Source: Oscillospiraceae bacterium
Lineage (GTDB): Bacteria; Bacillota; Clostridia; Oscillospirales; Oscillospiraceae
Direction of reading: 5' to 3'
NCBI GenBank assembly: GCA_017398685.1
Contig: JAFQFH010000005.1
Coordinates: 1 to 50,478, forward strand
Length of the DNA: 50,478 bases
In this document: piece by piece, positions 21,136-44,784 of the stretch
Numbering within the stretch: the stretch's first letter is position 1
Layout: every line of letters starts with the position of its first letter
Translations under genes and position numbers: made by a program
The notes under the pieces: generated by a model
Told to the model about the DNA's origin: nothing
Database searches by the model: none
What the model saw: only the letters and a program-made list of their open reading frames with translations

Positions 21136-21146
21136 TTTCACTGTAA

Positions 21147-21420
21147 AAATGACGTTGAAGGAAACCAGTAGGGTCGATAAGGCTTTTCAGAGAGCGTCCG
21201 TTTGGTGTGAGGGCGTAAGGACTGTCGGCTTGAATGCATTCCGGAGTTGCTTTCTGAAAGCTTATTGCGAGTATGGAAGACGGGTGCTCCCGTTACAGGG
21301 CGCGGCGTGTGATGGCACGCTTTGAGCTGCACGGTGCGAGCCGTGCAGGTTTCAGAGGTGGAACCGCAATTATGTACTAATTGCCCTCTGTCCCCAAGTG
21401 GGGGACAGAGGGTTTTATTT
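21147..21420 (+). ncRNA. T-box leader, predicted cysteine (UGC) specific
   Basis: The T-box sequence AGAGGTGGAACCGCA is at 21354-21368. Stem I has the AGTA bulge (21167-21170) and AGAGAGC (21189-21195). The specifier loop is closed below by GGAA (21160-21163) with TTCC (21239-21242), and above by GTCGAT (21173-21178) with GTCGGC (21224-21229). The 3' side of this loop reads GAA, TGC, A (21232-21238), so the specifier is TGC (Cys). The variable base of the UGGN bulge is A, which fits a tRNA with discriminator U, as in tRNA-Cys. Stem III is 21327-21348. Antiterminator (CAGAGG 21353-21358 with CCTCTG 21385-21390) and terminator overlap. When uncharged tRNA binds, the downstream symporter is expressed. 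Confidence 0.92.
21384..21420 (+). terminator. T-box-regulated terminator
   Basis: CCCTCTGTCCCC (21384-21395) pairs with GGGGACAGAGGG (21401-21412), followed by TTTTATTTTT. Its left arm is shared with the antiterminator, so the two are mutually exclusive. Confidence 0.92.
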
Positions 21421-41385: not shown

Positions 41386-41414
41386 TCGACTATTTTGTGC
41401 TATTATGATATAAT
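41386..41414 (+). promoter_or_regulatory. Promoter of the GTPase-NYN/ylmH operon
   Basis: TCGACT (41386-41391, 4 of 6 matches), 17-base spacer, TATAAT (41409-41414). The TTG start codon of the first gene lies about 37 bases downstream. Confidence 0.65.
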
Positions 41415-41450
41415 ACATAGGTTAAATTTGACCAAGAGGGGAACTTTCCG

Positions 41451-44051
41451 TTGGATACGAAGAAAGAGGGCGCAAAAAAGAATATCTGTGTCGGTATCCT
41501 TGCCCATGTGGACGCGGGGAAAACCACTCTCAGCGAAGCCATGCTCTATCTTTCCGGCAGGATAAAAAAGCTGGGCCGGGTTGACCACAGGGACAGCTTT
41601 CTCGATACCCATGAGCTTGAGCGTGAGCGGGGCATAACCATCTTTTCAAAGCAGGCCATGCTTGAAGTGGGTGACACCGCCATAACATTGCTGGATACTC
41701 CCGGTCATGTGGACTTTTCCGGCGAGGCGGAGCGGGCCTTGCAGGTAATGGACTATGCAGTGCTGGCCCTCAGCGGCACGGCGGGTGTTCAGGCCCATAC
41801 CCGTACCCTCTGGCAGCTCCTTGAAAGCTACCACATTCCCACCTTCATATTTATAACAAAGATGGATCTGCCCGTCTGTGACAGAAAGGCCATTACGGCG
41901 GATATTCTGGCGCAGCTTGGAGAAAGCTGCGTGGATTTTGGCACGGACGAAGAGGTATGGATGGAGAGCGCCGCCATGTGCAGTGAAAAGGCCATGGAGC
42001 GCTATCTTGAAAAAGGTATGCTGGATGACAGTGACATTGCCGAGCTTGTGCGCGACTGTAAGCTCCACCCCTGCTTCTTTGGCTCGGGGCTTAAAACCGA
42101 CGGTGTGGATGCACTTTTGTACGCTCTTGATAAATATACCCTTGCGCAGGATTACGGCGATGAGTTCGGCGCAAAGGTTTTCAAAATAGCAAGGGACACA
42201 CAGGGCCAGCGCATGAGCTTTGTGAAAGTCACCGGCGGGGAGCTTAAAGTCCGCTCCCTGTTGAAATATAAAAACGAGCAGGGCGAGGAAAAGGAAGAGA
42301 AAGTAAACCAGCTTCGCCTATATTCCGGCAGTAAATTTACTGCGGTTGACAGTGTTGGCGCAGGGCAGGTCTGCGCGGTGCTGGGCCTTGGCGAAAGCTG
42401 GCCCGGTCAGGGTCTGGGCATTGAAAAGGATGCGCCTGCACCTATTCTTGAGCCTGTCATGAGCTACAATGTTATACTGCCTCCAAAAGTGGACCACAGG
42501 CTTTTTCTCCCAAAGCTGATGCTTTTGCAGGAGGAAGAACCCCTTTTCCGCATTTTGTGGGATGCAAGGCGCGGCGGCATCTGCGTCCATCTTATGGGCC
42601 GCGTGCAGCAGGAGATATTCAAAAGCCTTGTGAAGGACCGCTTTGATGTGGAGGTCACACTGGACGCAGGGCGCGTACTTTATAAGGAAACTATTGCGGA
42701 CAAGGTAGAGGGCGTGGGCCATTTTGAACCCTTGCGCCACTATGCGGAGGTCCACCTTATCATGGAGCCCCTGCCACGTGGCAGCGGCATCGTGGTGGAT
42801 ACTCTTTGCAGCGAGGACGAGCTGGACCGCAACTGGCAGCGGCTGATCCTCACCCACGTGCTGGAGCGAAGCCACCCCGGCGTACTGACAGGCTCCGCCA
42901 TAACCGACATGAAAATAAGCCTTGCCGCAGGCCGCGCCCATATAAAGCACACCGAGGGCGGGGACTTCCGTCAGGCAACTTACAGGGCCATACGTCAGGG
43001 ACTCATGCAGGCCAAAAGCGTGCTGCTGGAGCCTTATTATGCCTTTACCATGGACCTGCCGCCCGAGCAGATAGGCCGCGCCATATCGGATATCCGCGCC
43101 ATGAACGGGCATATCGAACCTTCCGAGGACGCAGGCGATATGACAAGGCTTACAGGTTATGCCCCTGTTGCCGCCATGAGCGACTATATGGAGGAGCTTG
43201 TGGCCTATACCCACGGCAGAGGCCGCCTCTCTCTCAAGCCTGACGGCTATAGACCATGCAAAAACCAGCAGGCCATCGTGGACGCTATCGGCTACAGTGC
43301 CGAGGCTGATGTGGACAACCCGGCAGACTCTGTATTCTGCTCCCACGGTGCAGGCGTGAATATAAAGTGGGACAAGGTGCGCGAGTATATGCACCTTGAA
43401 AGCGTGCTTTCGTCCAGACCCGCCGAAGTTCCTGTGCTGCGGCAGCGGCGCAGTCTTGATATAGACGAGCGGGAGCTGGAAGCTATCATGGAGCGGGAAT
43501 TTGGCCCTATCAAAAGGCCGGAATACAAAACCCAATTCAGAAACGAAGCTCCTGCAAAACCTGTAACTATAAGCCAGAAGCGGGACTACATCATAGTTGA
43601 CGGCTATAACCTTATCTTTGCCTGGGATGAGCTCAAAGCGCTGGCCAAAGAGCGCCTTGACCTTGCCCGTGGCAGGCTTATGGATATGCTTTCAAACTAC
43701 GCTGGCTTTACAAAGGCAAAGCTTGTACTGGTCTTTGACGGTTACAGAAATCCCGGCAGTACCGGCTCCAAAACGGATTACCACAATATCCACGTGGCCT
43801 ATACAAAAGACGGAGAGACGGCGGACGCCTATATAGAGCGGCTGCTGGACGAGATAGGCAAAAACTACTCGGTCCGCGTTATTACAAGCGACAATCTTAT
43901 CCGCGTCTCCGCCATGCGCTCCGGCGTACTGCGCACCTCATCCGGTGAATTTTCCAAGGAATTGGAGTGGACTTTGGAGCAGATAGAGCAGGTTTTGAAC
44001 AAGACCAATCTCTCTGCCCACAAAACCTTGTTGAAAGATGGAAAACAGTGA
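41451..44051 (+). CDS. Ribosomal-protection-type translational GTPase fused to a Rae1/YacP-like NYN nuclease
   Basis: An 866-aa two-part protein. The TTG start at 41451 follows GAGGGG at good spacing. Residues 1 to about 690 are a TetM/EF-G-like GTPase: P-loop AHVDAGKTT at 18-26, RERGITI, DTPGH at 82-86, G4 as TKMD (136-139) instead of NKxD, then EF-G domains II-V. Residues of about 710-855 are a NYN/PIN-like RNase domain like Bacillus subtilis Rae1 (YacP): YIIVDGYNLIFAWDELK, LVLVFDGYRN, DGETADAYIERLL, VITSDNLIR and the G-x3-R-x-S pattern. Rae1 cuts mRNA in the ribosomal A site. This is probably a ribosome-targeted factor, not necessarily tetracycline resistance. It overlaps a ylmH-like gene. 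Confidence 0.88.
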   Translation: MDTKKEGAKKNICVGILAHVDAGKTTLSEAMLYLSGRIKKLGRVDHRDSFLDTHELERERGITIFSKQAMLEVGDTAITLLDTPGHVDFSGEAERALQVMDYAVLALSGTAGVQAHTRTLWQLLESYHIPTFIFITKMDLPVCDRKAITADILAQLGESCVDFGTDEEVWMESAAMCSEKAMERYLEKGMLDDSDIAELVRDCKLHPCFFGSGLKTDGVDALLYALDKYTLAQDYGDEFGAKVFKIARDTQGQRMSFVKVTGGELKVRSLLKYKNEQGEEKEEKVNQLRLYSGSKFTAVDSVGAGQVCAVLGLGESWPGQGLGIEKDAPAPILEPVMSYNVILPPKVDHRLFLPKLMLLQEEEPLFRILWDARRGGICVHLMGRVQQEIFKSLVKDRFDVEVTLDAGRVLYKETIADKVEGVGHFEPLRHYAEVHLIMEPLPRGSGIVVDTLCSEDELDRNWQRLILTHVLERSHPGVLTGSAITDMKISLAAGRAHIKHTEGGDFRQATYRAIRQGLMQAKSVLLEPYYAFTMDLPPEQIGRAISDIRAMNGHIEPSEDAGDMTRLTGYAPVAAMSDYMEELVAYTHGRGRLSLKPDGYRPCKNQQAIVDAIGYSAEADVDNPADSVFCSHGAGVNIKWDKVREYMHLESVLSSRPAEVPVLRQRRSLDIDERELEAIMEREFGPIKRPEYKTQFRNEAPAKPVTISQKRDYIIVDGYNLIFAWDELKALAKERLDLARGRLMDMLSNYAGFTKAKLVLVFDGYRNPGSTGSKTDYHNIHVAYTKDGETADAYIERLLDEIGKNYSVRVITSDNLIRVSAMRSGVLRTSSGEFSKELEWTLEQIEQVLNKTNLSAHKTLLKDGKQ

Positions 44052-44784
44052 ACTTTTAAAACGTGCGGAAGACCTCCGCGCCCGCTGTGAAAAAAGCTGC
44101 ACCCTGACACATACGAATTTTCTCACCCCCGCCGAAAGCTATGAGATAAGCCTCTGGGCAAAGCACCGAAGCGACTGCAGCCTGGTTTTCTCCGGCGGAC
44201 AGGCGGACTGCGAGCGCACAGCAGCTTTCTTTCTGCCATACTATATGGATGAGGAAAGCTTTGACGCGGCAGAGTACATTTCTGCCATGAAGATCACAGC
44301 CCATTTTGGCACACCCGGACATCGGGACTATATGGGCGCCATTCTTGGCATGGGCATTGGCCGGGAATGGCTGGGCGATATCCGCGTGGTGGACAATGTT
44401 GCCTATGTGCTGTGTTTGCCCAGCGTACTTGAGCATCTTCTGGGCATTGAAAAAGTGGGCCGCTGCGGTGTAAAGACCGAAAAACTGGAGCTTTCTCAAC
44501 TGCCGGCAATAGAGCGGAAGGTGAAGAAAGTCAGCTTTTCGGTTATGAGCATGCGCCTTGATGCGGTGGCGGCGGGCTTATTCAGTCTGAGTCGCTCTGA
44601 TTGTGCCCGGCAGATAAATGAGGGCAGGCTGATGCTCAATTACAGGGAGACAACAAAGGTAGACGCACCGGTGCGTGAGGGGGATATCCTCTCCCTTCGC
44701 GGCAGTGGAAAAGGCAAGATAACAGGCACGGGCGGCTCATCACGCAAAGGGCGGCTTTTCGTGTACGGTGAGGTATACAAATAG
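44038..44784 (+). CDS. S4-domain RNA-binding protein, YlmH-like
   Basis: A 248-aa protein with the YlmH layout: N-terminal domain with FLTPAESYEISLWAK, LVFSGGQADCERTAAFFLP, middle YmlH-type segment HFGTPGHRDYMGAILGMGIGREWLGDI, and an S4 domain at about residues 180-240 (SMRLDAVAAGLFSLSRSDCARQINEGRLMLNY). YlmH in Bacillus subtilis acts in ribosome-associated quality control on 50S-peptidyl-tRNA complexes. The start lies 14 bases inside the GTPase-nuclease gene, so the two are translationally coupled. This gene is usually in the dcw/division region, which makes the present position informative. Confidence 0.9.
   Translation: MENSELLKRAEDLRARCEKSCTLTHTNFLTPAESYEISLWAKHRSDCSLVFSGGQADCERTAAFFLPYYMDEESFDAAEYISAMKITAHFGTPGHRDYMGAILGMGIGREWLGDIRVVDNVAYVLCLPSVLEHLLGIEKVGRCGVKTEKLELSQLPAIERKVKKVSFSVMSMRLDAVAAGLFSLSRSDCARQINEGRLMLNYRETTKVDAPVREGDILSLRGSGKGKITGTGGSSRKGRLFVYGEVYK

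Follow-up and report, generated by a model that had tools for sequence, protein, structure and literature searches.

A translational GTPase fused to a Rae1-like NYN domain in an Oscillospiraceae bacterium, a candidate ribosome-dependent mRNase

Fusions of a Tet-like GTPase to an NYN nuclease domain (Tet-NYN) were reported in ten clostridial species by Atkinson in 2015, and drug resistance through ribonuclease (RNase) activity was suggested for them (PMC4342817, accessible part of the text). For Rae1 of Bacillus subtilis, a role in translation-dependent decay of messenger RNA (mRNA) is described (PMC10100781), and cutting of mRNA in the ribosomal A site has been proposed (PMC10100781, PMC6613710; accessible parts of both). 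Here, a gene of the Tet-NYN type was analyzed in a stretch of 50,478 nucleotides from an Oscillospiraceae bacterium (assembly GCA_017398685.1, contig JAFQFH010000005.1), called the window below. Its product has the published order, a Tet-like GTPase followed by a C-terminal YacP-like NYN domain, and fits the description in the accessible part of PMC4342817. The fusion itself was already published in 2015 and is not new. Beyond that part of the paper, we add a survey of the class with the distribution of the gene, evidence from the GTPase tree and from the tip loop, which lacks the proline of TetM, against a simple role in tetracycline protection, a near exclusion of fused and stand-alone nuclease, an overlap with ylmH in the genus of the window and a change in the motif S-D-x-x-E-Q. 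In the open-licence literature searched, which did not cover the main papers on Rae1 and on TetO structure, the fusion was mentioned in PMC4342817 only. We see roughly even chances that the gene encodes a ribosome-dependent mRNase whose GTPase part delivers it to ribosomes when their A site is open or blocked.

The joining of GTPase and NYN domain is genuine and conserved, and it recurs in many related genomes. An earlier note on this DNA had read an 866-residue frame with a GTPase part and an NYN domain from about residue 710. The analysis agrees with this reading: the frame is single and intact, and the NYN domain begins at residue 714. GTPase and NYN domain shared one frame in all 20 relatives that were fetched (16 from the same genus, 4 from the same order). 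NYN_YacP was matched in 34 of the 60 genomes searched, the window's own included, and all 34 matches lay within frames of at least 619 residues. The single NYN_YacP match of the window's own genome is the fusion gene. Because these relatives and genomes all keep a long single frame, and the window gene has no internal stop, a frameshift or a chance join was ruled out. The closest named relatives of the window protein came from Lawsonibacter, Merdimonas, Oscillospiraceae and Lachnospiraceae.

The nuclease half was matched to the Pfam family NYN_YacP with 142.6 bits against a cut-off of 24.6 (expectation value, E, 1.5e-41). Comparison with the solved Bacillus YacP (PDB 5mq8/5mq9) gave an E of 7.6e-19, and the motifs VDGYN, ETAD and ITSD align between the two. 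Together with R-T-S at residues 828-830, the fusion protein contains all YacP/Rae1 motifs that had been listed before. The acidic residues D717, D763, D792 and D814 are likewise retained; they were invariant in 55/55 fused sequences (window counted once) and in 24/24 stand-alone NYN sequences. The fusion shares with Rae1/YacP of B. subtilis the NYN_YacP family, the four acidic positions and the ETAD and TSD motifs. In contrast to Rae1/YacP, which is a small stand-alone protein, the NYN domain of the window stands behind a GTPase. In a tree of NYN sequences, 55 of 56 fused entries formed one side with a support of 0.97. The other side held the 24 stand-alone sequences and one fused entry (L089), with a support of 0.40. 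The tree kept 80 entries, among which the window is present twice (L001 and W). Identical copies and sequences covering fewer than 500 GTPase or fewer than 100 NYN positions were left out of this tree and of the GTPase tree below.

The GTPase half spans residues ~10-606 and is of the EF-G/TetM type, as had been proposed. The corresponding Pfam domain set was found. Besides the domains in Table 1, it includes EF-G_D2 (E 8.1e-8) and a match to EFG_III that stayed under its cut-off (E 9.1e-4, 19.7 bits against 27). Domain layout and GTPase motifs are those of TetM, TetO and TetW, with ~29-32% identity. In contrast to the TetM-type tip loop YYSPVSTPA, the fusion reads AHIKHTEGG. It also has an extra linker and the NYN domain, and it falls under the NCBIfam cut-offs, reaching 402.4 bits against 775 for the tetracycline-protection model NF012153. 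EF-G shares the domain layout and the domain IV tip His with the fusion, which scored 266.3 bits against a cut-off of 659.4 for the EF-G model TIGR00484. At the alignment position of the tip proline of TetM (Pro509), 17 of 18 Tet-like sequences have P and 50 of 51 fusions have K. The tip His of EF-G (His583) recurs in its column in 50 of 51 fusions and 34 of 38 EF-G-like sequences. Tet-like and EF-G-like are clade names given here; 17 of the 18 Tet-like members are unannotated viral-contig loci, and the remaining one, from Paenibacillus, lacks the proline.

In the GTPase tree (115 entries kept), the 51 fusions were set apart from the 18-member Tet-like and the 38-member EF-G-like clades. Three sequences without NYN domain, from Neobacillus, Intestinibacter and one viral contig, were sisters to the fusions, with a support of 0.98 for the joint group. 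Four more, from Collinsella, Bifidobacterium and two viral contigs, were nested among the fusions, where several inner nodes were weak. Entry L091 was counted as lacking the NYN domain solely because its contig ends. As GTPases without NYN domain stand both beside and within the fusions, the pattern is best read as a single fusion event with later loss of the nuclease in the nested lineages. Because the tip proline is replaced by K, the clade is separate and the NCBIfam model score is low, dedicated tetracycline protection is probably not the role of the fusion. The suspected mis-annotation as tetracycline resistance was indeed encountered: the fusion of Agathobacter rectalis (L233:5983-8784, 252-kb record) is annotated TetM/TetW/TetO/TetS tetracycline resistance. 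A Monoglobus copy is annotated translation factor GTPase family protein. On our reading such resistance labels, which can mislead resistome surveys, would be corrected, and the difference in the tip loop offers a simple sequence rule to tell the fusion from a tetracycline-protection protein.

In the window's genome, which is 94% complete, no EF-G domain IV match (EFG_IV) was found besides that of the fusion, likely because of gaps. The same was seen in three genus genomes (G007, G011, G014), and for all four, assembly gaps are the likelier explanation. In many relatives of the genus, one or two further EFG_IV matches accompany the fusion; they score far better and lie in EF-G-sized frames. Since many fusion-bearing relatives have such separate frames, a replacement of EF-G by the fusion was rejected as unlikely.

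Distribution was surveyed in 293 genomes of the class, the window's own included. NYN_YacP was found in 192 of them, with one match in 188 and two in 4. Among the 150 NYN_YacP matches listed, 85 lay in frames of at least 600 residues, 60 in frames no longer than 220 residues and 5 in between. Because double matches are rare and long and short frames are split in this way, genomes as a rule carry just one of the two forms, fused or stand-alone. Judged from this near exclusion in one class sample, the fusion seems to replace stand-alone Rae1 in most genomes having it.

Downstream of the fusion, a YlmH-like gene starts before the fusion gene ends. The 14-base overlap that the earlier note had described was confirmed, and its span 41451-44784 comprises these two genes. 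The YlmH-like protein scored 29.7 bits for YlmH_RBD (cut-off 23) and 20.2 bits for S4, under the cut-off of 22.8. Like YlmH of B. subtilis in the accessible part of PMC11317155, it has a YlmH RNA-binding domain, a probable S4-like C-terminus and about 250 residues. In contrast to that protein, whose gene lies in the ylm/dcw region, its domain scores are weaker and its gene lies 3' of the fusion. Among the fetched genus loci, ylmH adjoined the fusion in 14 of 16, with overlaps of 14-32 bases and of exactly 14 in nine. Read by eye, ylmH stood beside the fusion in 25 of 29 YlmH-matching genomes of the genus, counting the window's own; in one of the four others (G014), the fusion ends at the contig end. 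The overlap with ylmH is a genus trait, and the 14 shared bases suggest translational coupling of the two genes. A second, separate arrangement is present in Lachnospiraceae bacterium AC2029 (L096:5245-8955), where ylmH lies 3 bases upstream of a GTPase-NYN fusion and scores 63.6 bits for YlmH_RBD and 35.1 bits for S4. NFACT_N, the domain that marks RqcH, was found in 18 of the 23 relatives of the genus that were searched.

From these data and by analogy to the two families, a mechanism can be proposed. With the A site empty or blocked, the EF-G/TetM-like part would bind the factor site of the ribosome and reach the decoding centre with the tip of its domain IV. The mRNA would then be cut at or beside the A site by the Rae1-like NYN domain tethered to this part. 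Such a cut would destroy the stalled message and leave the ribosome open to rescue. In the genus of the window, the co-encoded YlmH-like protein might in addition act on the product, a 50S subunit with peptidyl-transfer RNA (peptidyl-tRNA). That mRNA would be cut on a ribosome that is stalled or blocked by a drug, as the earlier note had put it, appears plausible by analogy; a hand-off from the fusion to YlmH is a weaker possibility. If true, stall recognition and mRNA cleavage would be united in one bacterial chain, and the many class genomes without stand-alone Rae1 would be accounted for.

Several observations weigh against this proposal. The Pfam match of the nuclease half follows the 166-position profile as far as position 147. 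Furthermore, S-D-x-x-E-Q, a pattern derived from the stand-alone sequences compared here and not from a paper, is not kept in the genus of the window, where residues 817 and 818, three and four positions past D814, are I in 17/17 and R in 15/17 sequences. Stand-alone NYN sequences have E at the first of these positions in 23/24 and Q at the second in 24/24. Fusions outside the genus have Q at the second position in 38/38; at the first, E was found in 23/38, Q in 12/38 and other residues in the rest. Because the genus lost E-Q and the Pfam match stops early, specificity or activity of the fusion may differ from Rae1, and the change to I-R may have altered the nuclease specificity. No description of this change was found in the literature searched, which did not include the main Rae1 papers. 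A docked Rae1-type nuclease would compete with domain IV for the same place. Therefore, the NYN domain would have to act from beside, via its linker, or in a second step. The near exclusion was obtained from raw genome counts that ignore kinship. Four genus genomes of 93-99% completeness (G012, G015, G026, G034) are without the fusion gene, which thus looks dispensable. As to the YlmH step, none of the 60 listed class fusions with a listed YlmH match had that match within 6 kb; 14 shared a contig with it, at 17 kb for the nearest. These 60 were among 85 listed class fusions, and both totals are lower bounds. No adjacent ylmH was seen at 20 class loci either, in a search with the divergent window protein that a distant ylmH could escape. 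The linkage to ylmH holds in the genus and fails in the class sample, with AC2029 as a single separate case. Finally, a search of the window's own genome for NFACT_N gave no match, likely owing to an assembly gap.

The fusion could protect against tetracycline or another A-site drug, with its added RNase domain as the basis of a new mechanism of resistance, an idea put forward in 2015 (PMC4342817, accessible part). The domain order of EF-G/TetM fits this idea, TetO and TetM were the top profile matches among solved structures, tet_protect was the top NCBIfam family, though under its cut-off, and one fused copy carries the resistance label described above. We nevertheless regard this explanation as quite improbable. 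The protein reaches about half of the bits demanded by the tetracycline-protection model, the fusions form a clade of their own with K in place of the tip proline, 188 of the 192 class genomes with NYN_YacP have a single match, and of the 1344 plasmid records with a match, just 2 reach a query coverage of 80%. A different possibility is an EF-G-like GTPase that remodels ribosomes or assists translocation with its tip His, while the NYN domain separately serves in maturation or decay of ribosomal RNA (rRNA) or tRNA and the fusion merely co-localises both on ribosomes. H497 stands in the tip-His column. Relatives without NYN domain exist in Neobacillus, Intestinibacter, Collinsella, Bifidobacterium and Ligilactobacillus (644 residues), which argues that the GTPase can work alone. 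Moreover, according to PMC4342817 (accessible part), a role of the NYN domain in rRNA and tRNA maturation had been suggested before. Against this stands the near exclusion of fused and stand-alone YacP, which suggests that the fused NYN domain covers the role of Rae1. We consider this possibility unlikely, though more probable than drug protection.

For the YlmH step alone, the overlap might be a genus-level rearrangement without function, which would be compatible with the proposed mRNase. To this we assign a probability only slightly short of even. The class sample lacks the linkage, the genus cases have common ancestry, and the genes 3' of ylmH, judged by eye, resemble a major facilitator superfamily (MFS) transporter and a sugar kinase. 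On the other hand, all 14 adjacent genus pairs examined overlap, the AC2029 adjacency is separate, and a YlmH match was found in 29 of 31 genus genomes with the GTPase versus 0 of 6 without it, a difference for which linkage or assembly gaps could suffice. A full cut-and-rescue module of the genus, in which the GTPase would probe or clear the A site, the nuclease with its altered motif would cut and the co-translated YlmH would take the peptidyl-tRNA-50S complex, the YlmH link having arisen at least twice, is in our view a doubtful extension of the mRNase proposal.

Mobile elements and defence systems were also considered. The two plasmid records with at least 80% coverage were both larger than 250 kb. 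Among 104 matching phage records, two reached this coverage, both unannotated faecal 'Bacteriophage sp.' With such coverage in so few records, a mobile-element gene was rejected. At 49 viral-contig loci, no match extended past residue 656 of the fusion. A Subdoligranulum plasmid record (H3) matches the fusion up to residue 680. A 248-kb plasmid record of Ligilactobacillus salivarius (L234:2526-4917) carries the 644-residue GTPase-only relative near rpsN (S14) and transposase genes. The PADLOC search with the fusion and the YlmH-like protein gave no match at E 0.001 for either, and membership in a defence system was rejected.

Table 1. Positions of the fusion gene, its parts and its neighbour in the window
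Feature	Position	Strand	Remarks
Promoter-like site, TCGACT-17-TATAAT	41386..41414	+	TG ahead of second hexamer; 10/12 consensus matches
Shine-Dalgarno-like GAGGGG	41436..41441	+	upstream of TTG start
Fused translational GTPase-NYN nuclease gene (P0001)	41451..44051	+	866 residues; TTG start; no internal stop
G domain, residues 10-230	41478..42140	+	PF00009 (GTP_EFTU), 158.8 bits, E 1.5e-46
Domain IV, residues 407-522	42669..43016	+	PF03764 (EFG_IV), E 7.1e-17
Domain IV tip loop GRAHIKHTEGGDF, residues 494-506	42930..42968	+	K499 in TetM tip-proline column; H497 in EF-G tip-His column
Domain V, residues 524-606	43020..43268	+	PF00679 (EFG_C), 69.7 bits, E 2.2e-19
Linker, residues 607-713, ~107 residues	43269..43589	+	no Pfam match
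NYN_YacP (Rae1-like) domain, residues 714-858	43590..44024	+	acidic D717, D763, D792, D814
I817-R818	43899..43904	+	genus-specific, in place of E-Q of stand-alone YacP
Overlap of fusion end and ylmH start, 14 bases	44038..44051	+	
YlmH-like protein with putative S4 domain (P0002)	44038..44784	+	248 residues; divergent

Within the linker, the stretches DSVFCSHGAG (residues 626-635) and ELEAIMEREFGPI (residues 675-687) were both well conserved across an alignment of 16 sequences. The first, in the form DSVFCxHGAG, also occurs in some relatives without NYN domain, and a pattern search did not recognise it in some fusions. At a guess, it might bind metal or rRNA. The promoter-like site ends 36 bases 5' of the TTG start and is a consensus match only; 11 such sites were found in the scanned region versus 5.0 expected. 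Elsewhere in the window, a T-box leader was detected at 21146-21391 (RF00230, 107.1 bits).

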